Source of the DNA: a virus | Strand: one strand, 5' to 3' | IMG/VR virus record: IMGVR_UViG_3300047287_000129 | Span: 1 to 25,633 of that record | DNA: 25,633 bases | Shown: in pieces, positions 1,051 to 13,549 of the stretch | How positions within the stretch are numbered: the first letter of the stretch is position 1 | How the letters are laid out: each line of letters opens with the position of its first letter | The notes under the pieces: generated by a model | What the model saw: the letters and a program-made list of their open reading frames with translations, nothing else | What the model was told of the DNA's origin: nothing | The model's database searches: none | Translations under genes and position numbers: made by a program

Positions 1051-1437
1051 TTAGAGTTTAGTAATTTTAATTGTTCCCATTGTACCACTAGGTAGAGCTG
1101 GAGAGGAATAGACATTATCCCAATTGTACTCCATTGCAAGTTGATGCAATATAGTTCTTGAAATCTGATAGCAGTTGCCAATAAACTCGGTGCTGTTATA
1201 GCCATAACTCTCGTTATCTGCAAAGTTAGGAAGAAGAACTCTCTTAACCTCTCTCAATAGAGCATCAGCATGTTCTCTACGTTTTAGCTGCTCCTCAAAC
1301 GACAGTCCTTCAATCATCTCATCAATGGTACAACGTAGTTGACATTGTCCAGAAGCAAATCGACCCACATCATCAAGGCAGTCAGCTATCAGTCTCATCT
1401 GCTCTTCTGATAATTCAATTGTGTACTTTTTACTCAT
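1051..1437 (-). CDS. Conserved phage hypothetical protein (128 aa)
   Basis: The protein starts MSKKYTIELSEEQMRLIADCLDDVGRFASGQ and is predicted to be soluble and mostly helical. The opening (IELSEEQMRLI, then a central SFEEQLKRREHADALLREVKR helix and a C-terminal region with GYNSTEFIGNCYQISRTILHQL) resembles proteins I recall from Bacteroidota phages and prophages, with no known function. It is the gene directly downstream of the long folded non-coding region 1441-1800 on the same strand, so that RNA would be its 5' leader if not separately processed. The gap of 12 bases to the next gene (784-1038) suggests a shared transcript. Confidence 0.8.
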   Translation of the reverse strand: MSKKYTIELSEEQMRLIADCLDDVGRFASGQCQLRCTIDEMIEGLSFEEQLKRREHADALLREVKRVLLPNFADNESYGYNSTEFIGNCYQISRTILHQLAMEYNWDNVYSSPALPSGTMGTIKITKL

Positions 1438-2447: not shown

Positions 2448-3029
2448 TTAGTTATAAATTCCGTCAGAAGTAACAGAAGCTGTTGTAGTAACTGCATCCA
2501 TCTCTAAGAACACATGATTTGCTTTGTTGAAAGCAATACGAGTGTTAGCAAAGATGTACTTACCTTTATGAGTACAAAAGGCTCCATCTTTTCCACGACG
2601 TTTAGCACTCGTGTCAAGATTAGCAGATTGATACTCAGAAGGTTCAGTTGTTTCTACAACTTCAACCTTTAGATTAATTAGTTCATCACCAATTAATACT
2701 TGAGGATTTAACACGTTTAACATCAAGATTTCTCTTCCAAGAACGTCTTGAGTCCAACCTGGATTAGAATCAGTAAGATCTAACCCTAACAAAGCAGATG
2801 CATCAGATGGCTCAACAGTCATCCATGCACGTCTTGCTCCTCCTTGAGAGAAACGAGAGTCTGATTTGTTAAATAACGCCAATGGATTTACTGGACCAGA
2901 TTCTTTTTGAAGAATCTCAGCAAATTCCAATTGGATCTTTTGGCCTGCAACTTTCCTAGCAGACACGAGCAAGGTCTCATTCATTGACAACCCAGTCAAT
3001 GAACCAGAATTTTGAGTGTTATGACTCAT
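2448..3029 (-). CDS. Hypothetical phage protein (193 aa)
   Basis: The protein starts MSHNTQNSGSLTGLSMNETL and looks soluble and beta-rich, with segments REILMLNVLNPQVL and LINLKVEVVETTEPSEY, then a basic patch TSAKRRGKDGAFCTHKGKYIFANTRIAF. It has its own promoter-like box (3058-3065) and a strong terminator (2395-2426), so it forms a one-gene transcription unit, an arrangement that suggests strong expression. Codon choice is fuller than in its neighbours. The compact beta-rich layout with a basic patch would fit an OB-fold nucleic-acid-binding protein such as a single-strand binding protein, but this is only a guess. Confidence 0.8.
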   Translation of the reverse strand: MSHNTQNSGSLTGLSMNETLLVSARKVAGQKIQLEFAEILQKESGPVNPLALFNKSDSRFSQGGARRAWMTVEPSDASALLGLDLTDSNPGWTQDVLGREILMLNVLNPQVLIGDELINLKVEVVETTEPSEYQSANLDTSAKRRGKDGAFCTHKGKYIFANTRIAFNKANHVFLEMDAVTTTASVTSDGIYN

Positions 3030-3106: not shown

Positions 3107-3523
3107 TCACGTCCTTTCTATTGGCCCTAGTTTAATGAAATCTACTTGTCTAGCCTGTCTTATTCTTTCTTCTGAAAGACCGGCACGTAGTTCATTAACA
3201 GATACATTTATCCAAGTATTCTCAATCCATTCCATACCATCATACTCACCAATGGAATACTTAGCAAAGTCAGGAATGGTTACAATCTTCAATCCTTTGC
3301 TGATATATCCTACTGTTTCTAGAAGGTCTATCAATACAGGATCATGTCTTGCAATAGAATCATAAGTAAATGGGTTACCATCTACTACAATACAATCTTG
3401 CTCATAATAGTTTCCAGATTGATAGCTTGTTTCATAAGGTGTATCAGTTAATTTTAAGTACATCTTTAGTACTGCATCAGATAAATGATATCCACCATAC
3501 TCATTGTTGATTACTACTTTCAT
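3107..3523 (-). CDS. Conserved phage hypothetical protein (138 aa)
   Basis: The product starts MKVVINNEYGGYHLSDAVLKMYLK and carries IARHDPVLIDLLETVG and LKIVTIPD...YSIGEYDGMEWI. This order (KVVIN.xxGGxxLS, RxDPxLIxxVE, LKIVxIPD, xxIxEYDGxExI) matches a small protein family that I recall as widespread in phages and prophages of many hosts and always annotated as hypothetical. It is cytoplasmic with no signal peptide. Its start codon follows directly on the folded RNA 3524-3744, so that RNA could control its translation. The close fit to a known family makes the call of a real gene safe; the role is unknown. Confidence 0.85.
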   Translation of the reverse strand: MKVVINNEYGGYHLSDAVLKMYLKLTDTPYETSYQSGNYYEQDCIVVDGNPFTYDSIARHDPVLIDLLETVGYISKGLKIVTIPDFAKYSIGEYDGMEWIENTWINVSVNELRAGLSEERIRQARQVDFIKLGPIERT

Positions 3524-3547
3524 GTTTTTAAATTTTAGTTAATGATT

Positions 3548-3738
3548 AGTTTGTACCCCTCTGCACTCAATACTCTTATCCTATTAGAACTTGTTTGTCT
3601 AACATCACGGATAAGTTAAGACTTTACGTAGTCAAGTATTGCTCAGCCTTGGGAACTGAGTTATGGTGCATTAGTACAAACCAACAACATATCAGTCGAA
3701 AGACTTGTATCGACAAATCAGACCTCAATGCTGTTGGT
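3548..3738 (-). ncRNA. Candidate structured RNA B
   Basis: The whole gap between two minus-strand genes (3524-3744) folds into nested helices with little left over: 3550-3556/3674-3680 and 3562-3566/3666-3670 (outer stem with internal loop), 3568-3574/3635-3641, 3575-3581/3609-3615, 3584-3588/3598-3602, 3620-3623/3630-3633, 3642-3646/3656-3660, and a second domain 3681-3690/3728-3737 with an inner hairpin 3694-3697/3702-3705. The only non-Watson-Crick pair in the 10-bp helix is G-U on the minus strand. The result is two domains, one with a multi-branch junction. It may be an independent ncRNA or the regulatory leader of 3107-3523. Confidence 0.6.
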
Positions 3739-3744
3739 TTAATG

Positions 3745-3924
3745 TTATTGATGCAGTTTATATTCTTTGATTCTGAAGATAATCAAGTAAAATAAAAAGC
3801 ATGATACGAAAACTAGAAAGGTGTTTACATACCATTCTACGTTTAGTGTTGTGTTTGCTAAGTAGATCAATCCTAAGCTGTCTAAGAAAGCAGCAATGAT
3901 GATGATTAACAGTAAGTGTTTCAT
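3745..3924 (-). CDS. Small two-span membrane protein (59 aa)
   Basis: The ORF starts MKHLLLIIIIAAFLDSLGLI and continues through YLANTTLNVEWYVNT to a second hydrophobic segment (FLVFVSCFLFYLIIF, residues 36-50) and a basic tail RIKEYKLHQ. Two membrane spans (about 3-22 and 34-50) joined by a short polar loop are predicted. Its stop at 3745 is 7 bases from the first helix of structured RNA B. Small membrane proteins of this sort in phage accessory blocks may be inhibitors or holin-like, but no motif supports a specific role. Confidence 0.65.
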   Translation of the reverse strand: MKHLLLIIIIAAFLDSLGLIYLANTTLNVEWYVNTFLVFVSCFLFYLIIFRIKEYKLHQ

Positions 3925-11582: not shown

Positions 11583-13549
11583 AACTAAATGACACTCACT
11601 TATTTAGTCCTGCTGCCAACCACTATAAAGAGTTTGGGCATTATATAGATGCACTCCCAGGAACAAAACAATACTACGAGTATTGGGATGAGGAGCAAAA
11701 TAGATGTCTACATGGGTATGAAGTAAATGGGGTTAAGATATCTGGATTTCATTACTTTTACTTAAACTATTGTCCAATTGATAGGATTATAGATGAAGAA
11801 CAACCAGACGGGGAGATCATATCACGACGTGATAGAAGTTTCCCTGCATTTTATGACGGAGACTATGAATATTTTACAGCAATTGACAAAGCACGTAAAG
11901 AAAACAAGCATATGGTGGTGCTTAAAGCACGACGTAAAGGATTCTCCTACAAAGCTGCAGCTATGCTTTGCCGTAACTATTTCCATCTTAGGAATTCTAA
12001 GAATTTTGTATTTGCTTCTGATAAGCAATACTTGATTGGGGATGGGATGTTATCTAAAGCATGGGATATTGTATCATTTGTAGATGACAATACTGCTTGG
12101 ACTCAACCACGTCTTATCGATCGAGAAATGCATAAACAATCTGGGTACAAAAAGAATGTAAACGGGGCCGACGTAACTCTTGGGTTCAAGTCACAGATTA
12201 TCGGAGTATCATTAAAAGATGACCCAGATAAAATCCGTGGTAAAGCAGGTGAGTTAATATTCTTCGAAGAGGCAGGGTCATTCTCAGGGTTGCTAAAAGC
12301 TTGGGAGGTAGCAATGCCTACAATGAGACAGGGTTCAAAGACTCTTGGGACAATGATTGCATTTGGAACTGGTGGAGAAGAAGGTCCTGGATTTGATGGG
12401 ATGGAGGAGCTATTCTATCACCCAGAAGCCTACGATTGTTTAGGATTTGAAAATGATTGGGATGCTGGAGCAATGGGAACTTACTGTGGATTCTTTGTCC
12501 CAATTTACAAAAATCTCGATGGCTTTATTGATAATGATGGGAACAGTCTCGTTGAAGAAGCTATGTCCTATGAAGAAGCTCAAAGAGAAAAAAAGAAAAA
12601 AGGTAATGATCCAAAGGCATTCGATCAGTATATTGCCGAACACCCATTTACTCCACAAGAGGCTACTTTGCAGGTAACTGCCAATGTATTTGATGTAGCT
12701 TCTTTGAAAGAGCAGTACAACAAAGTAATTGCCAACAACCTCCAAGCTATAGGAGTTAGTGGTGAGATGTATTATGACACCCACGGCAAAACTAATTTCC
12801 GGCCTAATGGTTCCCTTAAACCTATTACAAAATTCCCACATAGAAAAGACGACGATTTAACTGGTTGTGTAGTAGTCTATGAACCACCATTCAAAACTGA
12901 GAGAGAAGGAATTACCCCTAAAAACTTATACATCATTTGTCATGACCCGTATGCTCAAGGTAAGTCTGCCTCTGCCACATCTCTTGGTTCAGCCTATGTT
13001 ATAAAAGTCCCTAACAATATCTCTAAACCAGATGATATTATAGTTGCTTCTTACGTAGGCCGTCCACAATCTCAGGATGAATATAACCGAAATCTATTCA
13101 TGCTTGCAGAATACTACAATGCAAAGATAGGGTTTGAGAACGATAGAGGAGAAGTAATTCCGTATGCAAAACGTTTCCGAAAGATGCATTTATTGCAAGA
13201 AGAATTCGAAATGCTTGATAAACGTGAACTTAGAAGTAAGACTGTTAAACGACAGTACGGTATGCACATGACTGAACAACGTAAGGCTCAAGGGGAATTA
13301 TACATCAGAGACTGGTTAGTTAGTGGTAGAGGTGTAGACGAAGATGAAAATGTTACACTAAATATGCACAAGATATACGATCCTGCATTACTTTTGGAGT
13401 TGATTAAGTTTAATAGAACTGGCAACTTTGACCGAGCTATGTCCTTAATGATTGGGATGTATCATACAAGAGAGTTGTACAATAAAGAACTTAAGCTAGA
13501 TGACTCAGATAATTCCACTAATGATTGGTTTGACAAGATCTACCACTAG
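11579..13549 (+). CDS. terL: Terminase large subunit (656 aa)
   Basis: The DNA-packaging motor, with an N-terminal ATPase and a C-terminal nuclease. The P-loop region reads VVLKARRKGFSYKAA (about residues 113-127): ARRKGFSYK in place of the canonical GRRxGKS/T. Walker B is GELIFFEEAG (224-233), with catalytic Glu230/231. GTMIAFGTGGEEG (257-269) is the coupling motif region. In the nuclease domain, ICHDPYA supplies Asp456, GFENDRG Glu520 and FDRAMSLMI Asp618, the acidic triad expected in RNase H-like nucleases. The unusual long N terminus (residues 1-90) with HYFYLNYCPIDRI is seen, as I recall, in relatives. It overlaps 11337-11582 by 4 bases. Confidence 0.95.
   Translation: MKLNDTHLFSPAANHYKEFGHYIDALPGTKQYYEYWDEEQNRCLHGYEVNGVKISGFHYFYLNYCPIDRIIDEEQPDGEIISRRDRSFPAFYDGDYEYFTAIDKARKENKHMVVLKARRKGFSYKAAAMLCRNYFHLRNSKNFVFASDKQYLIGDGMLSKAWDIVSFVDDNTAWTQPRLIDREMHKQSGYKKNVNGADVTLGFKSQIIGVSLKDDPDKIRGKAGELIFFEEAGSFSGLLKAWEVAMPTMRQGSKTLGTMIAFGTGGEEGPGFDGMEELFYHPEAYDCLGFENDWDAGAMGTYCGFFVPIYKNLDGFIDNDGNSLVEEAMSYEEAQREKKKKGNDPKAFDQYIAEHPFTPQEATLQVTANVFDVASLKEQYNKVIANNLQAIGVSGEMYYDTHGKTNFRPNGSLKPITKFPHRKDDDLTGCVVVYEPPFKTEREGITPKNLYIICHDPYAQGKSASATSLGSAYVIKVPNNISKPDDIIVASYVGRPQSQDEYNRNLFMLAEYYNAKIGFENDRGEVIPYAKRFRKMHLLQEEFEMLDKRELRSKTVKRQYGMHMTEQRKAQGELYIRDWLVSGRGVDEDENVTLNMHKIYDPALLLELIKFNRTGNFDRAMSLMIGMYHTRELYNKELKLDDSDNSTNDWFDKIYH

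Follow-up and report, generated by a model that had tools for sequence, protein, structure and literature searches.

The closest described systems are the small self-cleaving RNAs, above all twister, described by Roth (2014) and reviewed in PMC5408937. Its type-P1 form comprises the helices P1, P2 and P4, a pairing between the loops L4 and L1 (T1), cleavage at a U-A step that adjoins P1, and a G in the active site (PMC5408937, PMC6154101); the roles of A7 and G45 have been described (PMC5408937). Twister-sister, pistol and hatchet are likewise small self-cleaving RNAs; twister-sister, unlike the RNA reported here, is without such a pseudoknot and has its cleavage site on the opposite strand (PMC5408937), and pistol ribozymes occur near phage genes (PMC6154101). 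Eckert (2023; PMC10085705) searched for permuted twisters and found none. As far as we searched the literature, no link between twister or other self-cleaving ribozymes and crAss-like phages was found.

The DNA analyzed here (the window), a piece of 25.6 kb, comes from a crAss-like phage and has PHROGs matches for terL, the portal and the major head proteins. The INPHARED matches of its terL are mostly Crassvirales, Bacteroides, Flavobacterium and Cellulophaga phages. A preliminary description had listed a dense set of helices in the gap 3524-3744, and these were found in the fold of its minus strand, including the 10-bp helix 3737-3728/3690-3681, the single imperfect pair of which is G-U on the minus strand and A-C on the plus strand. 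The gap also folds better than shuffled controls, as anticipated: the minimum free energy of the minus strand was -63.7 kcal/mol against a shuffled mean of -42.2 (z -5.51, with none of 200 shuffles equal), compared with a z of -1.67 for the plus strand, where 14 of 200 shuffles were equally good. The genes flanking the gap on both sides lie on the minus strand. The small membrane-protein gene stands upstream as described, and the downstream gene does adjoin the gap, although the last helix stops about 26 nt before its start codon. Two RNA elements lie in the gap: the 57-nt hairpin 3737-3681 comes first and is followed on its 3' side by a pseudoknotted RNA of 131 nt (3680-3550). The pseudoknot of the latter, 3653-3651/3559-3557, is of a kind that minimum-free-energy folding cannot display. 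The features, with the evidence for each in brackets, are as follows.

3745..3924, minus strand: upstream small membrane-protein-like gene, 59 aa
3681..3737, minus strand: separate 57-nt hairpin directly 5' of the putative ribozyme (fold z -6.1)
3550..3680, minus strand: putative twister-like ribozyme, whole, from the P1 5' strand to the P1 3' strand (covariance model, blastn)
3674..3680, minus strand: P1 5' strand UUUGUAC, partner GUACAAA at 3556-3550 (covariation)
3671..3673, minus strand: L1 5' strand UAA, with predicted cleavage between U3673 and A3672 (register of twister U6-A7)
3666..3670, minus strand: P2 5' strand UGCA+C, partner G+UGCA at 3566-3562 (the fifth pair, Y-R, covaries)
3656..3660, minus strand: P4 5' strand CUCAG, partner at 3646-3642 (pairing, double changes)
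3647..3655, minus strand: loop L4, UUCCCAAGG, of which 3653-3651 pair with 3559-3557 as pseudoknot T1 (the T1 middle pair covaries)
3568..3641, minus strand: P5 arm, with the stem 3641-3635/3574-3568 and a variable interior with two more hairpins
3557..3561, minus strand: L1 3' strand GAGGG, with G3561 as presumed counterpart of the catalytic G45 of the O. sativa twister
3107..3523, minus strand: downstream gene, 138 aa, phrog_16527, function not assigned
2448..3029, minus strand: 193-aa gene, downstream in the same transcription unit as the putative ribozyme

Protein searches with the 138-aa gene gave no matches in IMG/VR and two weak ones only in INPHARED, the 193-aa gene had no match in PHROGs, Pfam or INPHARED, and a DNA search of INPHARED with the locus and the RNA core gave no real match. 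Just past the 193-aa gene on the minus strand, at about 2402-2426, there is an inverted repeat, GTTAAGGGG-GAAA-CCCCTTAAC, possibly the transcription terminator of the unit carrying this gene.

Relatives of the window's terL yielded five loci where blastn found the gap RNA, in intergenic positions beside different genes, and a search with a degenerate pattern of the core matched at least 120 contigs, with a complete 3' half at 123 of 130 sites among the matches listed. At least 109 distinct copies in IMG/VR share the order P1-UAA-P2-P4-P5 together with the L4/L1 pseudoknot. The fixed core reads P1, UAA, UGCAY, CAUAA or CAUU, a 5-bp hairpin with the loop UUCxCAAGG, C-AGUUG..CAACU-G, A, RUGCA, GAGyG and P1'. 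The P5 interior spans 38-309 nt with a median of 88 (122 copies among the matches listed) and is only a few nt long in L099 and L125. The window's close relative L003 (terL 99% identical) has a copy at 2394-2722 on the minus strand with a P5 interior of about 200 nt that looks unrelated to the window's, and its downstream gene is also different. Five pattern matches were found in GTDB genomes, of which only L225 looks real, its 3' half being cut off; this copy sits at the end of a 4.6-kb contig labelled as an alphaproteobacterial MAG (RFNS01000086.1), which is probably a misbinned phage fragment.

Covariation among these homologues, which the preliminary description had proposed as a check, is strong. 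In alignment A1 (48 diverse copies, aligned with MAFFT without structure information and with the P5 interior taken out) 91.1% of the cells of the structure, pseudoknot included, form pairs, against 76.0% when shuffled, and double changes number 203 against 77.7. Sliding the partners by one column lowers the pairing to 31-35%, and slides of 1-3 columns destroy the signal. All six P1 columns covary, and P4 cells are 100% paired with double changes at four pairs, the outer pair turning from C-G to U-A in the copies from L086, L199 and L115. Covariation was seen in P1, the last P2 pair, P4, P5 and the L4/L1 pseudoknot. Among the matches listed (109 copies), the highly variable P1 forms 445 paired cells against 318 +/- 12 when shuffled (maximum 352) and P4 pairs almost always; the middle pair of T1, i.e., x of the loop with y of GAGyG, is C-G in 87, A-U in 20 and another combination in 2, and the Y-R pair of P2 is C-G in 78, U-A in 27, C-A in 2 and U-G in 2. 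In L125 the T1 region reads UUCUC/GAGAG. The position of the presumed catalytic G holds G in 107 of these 109 copies and A in the other two. The search pattern itself prescribed UAA, YCA, the loop and GCA, and the 3' half was chosen by its P5 pairing; the pairing of P1, P4, T1 and Y-R played no part in the selection of copies. UAA occurs in every copy, as the pattern required, yet the window and the five pattern-independent relatives have it too. When 2.9 million viral contigs were searched for the core with any base but A following the scissile U, 37 sites matched, and neither a 4-bp P4 stem nor a convincing 3' half was seen at any of them. Across these sequences the A placed 3' of the predicted scissile bond is invariant among the copies that form the structure.

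The gap RNA had been described as belonging to no recognized family. At Rfam thresholds this holds: the window copy has no twister match, twister-sister, pistol and hatchet have none at the gap element, and SNORD72 and STnc50, obtained with the window and L059 (gathering threshold and E<=5), were discarded as chance matches, leaving no useful family. In kinship, however, the branched domain is twister-like. With the compact copy L099, twister-P1 (RF03160) ranks first of 4,227 Rfam families at 18.8 bits (E 0.068), in a full-length match that is in register at UAA and GAGGG and does not reach the cut-off of 67.2 bits. Conversely, R1, a covariance model built solely from variant copies, recovers canonical twisters in L202, L203 and L223 (E 7e-4 to 0.011); its match to the window (3551-3679, 71.5 bits) is to a copy from its own training set. 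Over 487 kb around canonical twisters R1 gave 57 matches at E<=1, nearly all at known twister positions, an agreement that is partly built in because these loci had been picked with a pattern that shares UAAUGCA and CAAG. Two contigs with the variant also contain near-canonical twisters, of 52.1 and 49.8 bits, and L223 has a canonical twister some 110 nt upstream of a variant copy.

Other catalytic RNAs were also observed. L175 carries, in the same contig stretch as a variant copy, a pistol ribozyme above the Rfam cut-off (2731-2790, minus strand), and L107, also with a variant, has a group I intron of 97.6 bits (12716-12973, plus strand). Two human-gut crAss-like phages hold unannotated twister-like RNAs below the Rfam cut-off: cr56_1 (L460; NC_055890.1:1760-1815, plus strand; 27.9 bits) and cr4_1 (L459; NC_055893.1:75131-75183, minus strand; 33.9 bits). 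In cr56_1 the T2 dinucleotides are apparently AC/GU instead of GC/GC, which amounts to a compensated change.

The variant shares with type-P1 twister (RF03160) the three essential helices P1, P2 and P4 in their order, an L1 made of UAA and GAGyG with the scissile U-A and the catalytic G in register, an L4 reading UCxCAAG, a T1 pseudoknot with the same variable middle pair, and the phage context. We take U3673-A3672 and G3561 to correspond to U6-A7 and G45 of the O. sativa twister. Canonical phage twisters read UGCA-GC-[P3]-[P4 G-UCxCAAGC-C]-RAA-UGCA, whereas the variant has no P3, has YC instead of GC (GCC) after P2, and its P5 directly follows P4. Its L4 ends in GG, not GC(C), its P2 is one pair longer through the covarying Y-R, and of T2 one or two pairs remain at most. 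P5 is always present, compared with 1% of annotated twisters (PMC6154101). The canonical T2, in which GC of L2 meets GC of L4, is absent, L2 having YC and L4 having GG, and a search for a compensating L2 change in copies with an altered L4 G found only L236 and L251 as real copies, neither of them compensated. We infer that the C following Y retains contact with the first G of L4, that Y pairs with R as the fifth P2 pair, and that the U of L4 closes P4 with a G, which in L251 is an A and would give U-A. The branched domain is very probably a twister-like ribozyme, and active cleavage is likely.

As to genomic setting, a terL of phrog_6681 was present in 18 of the 21 contigs tested, the other three being fragments of 28-60 kb, and in all 18 it lies on the strand opposite to the RNA. 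A strand switch to a divergent block is found upstream of the RNA at 56 of 59 loci (median distance 1.9 kb; about 2.1 kb in the window), with only a few same-strand genes in between, and a switch downstream within 4 kb at only 3 of 53. Given the upstream switch and the same strand downstream, the place of the RNA is close to where one of two divergent gene blocks begins. R1 gave matches in 19 of the 21 records, including that of the window, with one or two copies per genome of roughly 100 kb. The adjoining genes are variable small genes, and ones resembling the 59-aa gene also lie upstream of the RNA in L010, L095, L128 and L422. We rejected a tight link to the 193-aa gene, since its homologues follow the RNA only in closer relatives, and also one to tRNAs, since one copy only (L023) directly precedes a tRNA. 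In the latter, a tRNA-Gln (1156-1229, minus strand) begins a few nt past the ribozyme P1, and predicted cleavage could therefore contribute to the processing of its 5' end. The 193-aa gene, conserved in close relatives, sometimes has ribozymes on both sides, and its homologue is followed by a second copy in L128 and in two more genomes. Tandem or clustered copies, some apparently truncated, occur in L101, L107, L109, L112, L115, L137, L139 and L166; in L112 and L109 remnants like P2/P5 and without P4 immediately follow a full copy. R1 found no variant in 14 Crassvirales and related INPHARED phages, isolates included, an empty result that alone is weak evidence, although the model did match the 19 records named above; a role of the RNA would therefore not be universal in Crassvirales.

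The preliminary description had seen here a phage-encoded, structured minus-strand RNA with two domains and a branched junction, which stands; it had also suggested an ncRNA or a regulatory leader, and these now seem less apt. Neighboring genes change and the RNA stays, which points to a processing element within a transcript and not to a free ncRNA or a leader specific to one gene. A regulatory leader or riboswitch of the downstream gene, not cleaving and merely resembling twister, would fit the short distance to the next ORF, which starts 80 nt away or less in 47 of 116 copies among the matches listed and 26 nt after P1 in the window. We consider it unlikely, however, given that the genes downstream are unrelated from copy to copy, the variable P5 arm is without a conserved pocket, no helix competes with a terminator or start site, and conservation centers on the twister active site, with the residue that follows the scissile bond included. 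A stable free ncRNA (sRNA, decoy or scaffold), in which the ribozyme fold would serve only for excision or capping, appears improbable to us. The clusters of two or three copies in L137, L115, L094 and L199 would agree with it and the P5 interior does vary as cargo would, but length and sequence of this interior differ freely between phages, and most genomes have one copy, within a run of same-strand genes.

A further reading starts from the absence of the canonical P3: the variant might be a non-circular permutation of twister, with the P4 block moved ahead of P3 and the arm called P5 being P3 itself. The base of the arm, C-AGU..ACU-G-A, resembles the base of P3, GCC AGU..ACUGA, in the near-canonical twisters of the same phages. 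If true, this would be a natural non-circularly permuted twister in a large group of environmental crAss-like phages. However, the GC before the arm does not behave as a T2 strand: its C becomes U in L137, and its G pairs within P4, changing to A together with a C to U change of its partner (L086, L115, L199). With this G belonging to P4 the permuted reading loses its main support, and since the order P2-P4-P5 is already allowed for twister no permutation is needed, so that we regard this reading as very unlikely. As with the non-circularly permuted hammerheads of Eckert (2023; PMC10085705), metagenomic sequence has here revealed a known kind of self-cleaving ribozyme in an unusual rearrangement; the variant differs from them in that its order is explained by loss of P3 and gain of P5. 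A DNA-level element with palindromic content (a recombination, packaging or replication site) would suit a position close to the divergent junction of the genome halves, but we give it hardly any weight, as the fold is strand-specific, the pseudoknot and the tolerance of G-U are features of RNA, and the orientation of the RNA nearly always agrees with the direction in which its block is transcribed.

The reading that we favor, and hold to be fairly likely, is that of a self-cleaving relative of twister with the order P1-P2-P4-P5, without P3 and with a reduced T2, which would process the transcript of the block. The 57-nt hairpin may have a part in it. It is confined to this phage group, in which several viral contigs have conserved it, its inner stem covaries (UUUG/CAAG to UUUA/UAAG), and in L128 it lies about 70 nt further from the ribozyme. 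As it stops 8 nt before the predicted cleavage site, it would lie at the 3' terminus of the upstream fragment, which it could plausibly guard against 3' exonucleases. The RNA would thus fold during transcription and cut itself between U3673 and A3672, leaving an upstream fragment with the small leader genes and a 3' end protected by the hairpin, and a downstream fragment whose 5'-OH and compact ribozyme fold would define where the long mRNA begins and protect its 5' end. Such a processing role in the 5' region of the transcription unit is proposed tentatively, its chances being a little short of even.

For the role of twisters in bacteria and phages the variant suggests one concrete possibility, cutting the leader off a long phage mRNA. 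A natural twister without P3 and most of T2 would bear on what the fold needs for catalysis, and a twister-like RNA that Rfam misses is maintained in many environmental crAss-like phages.
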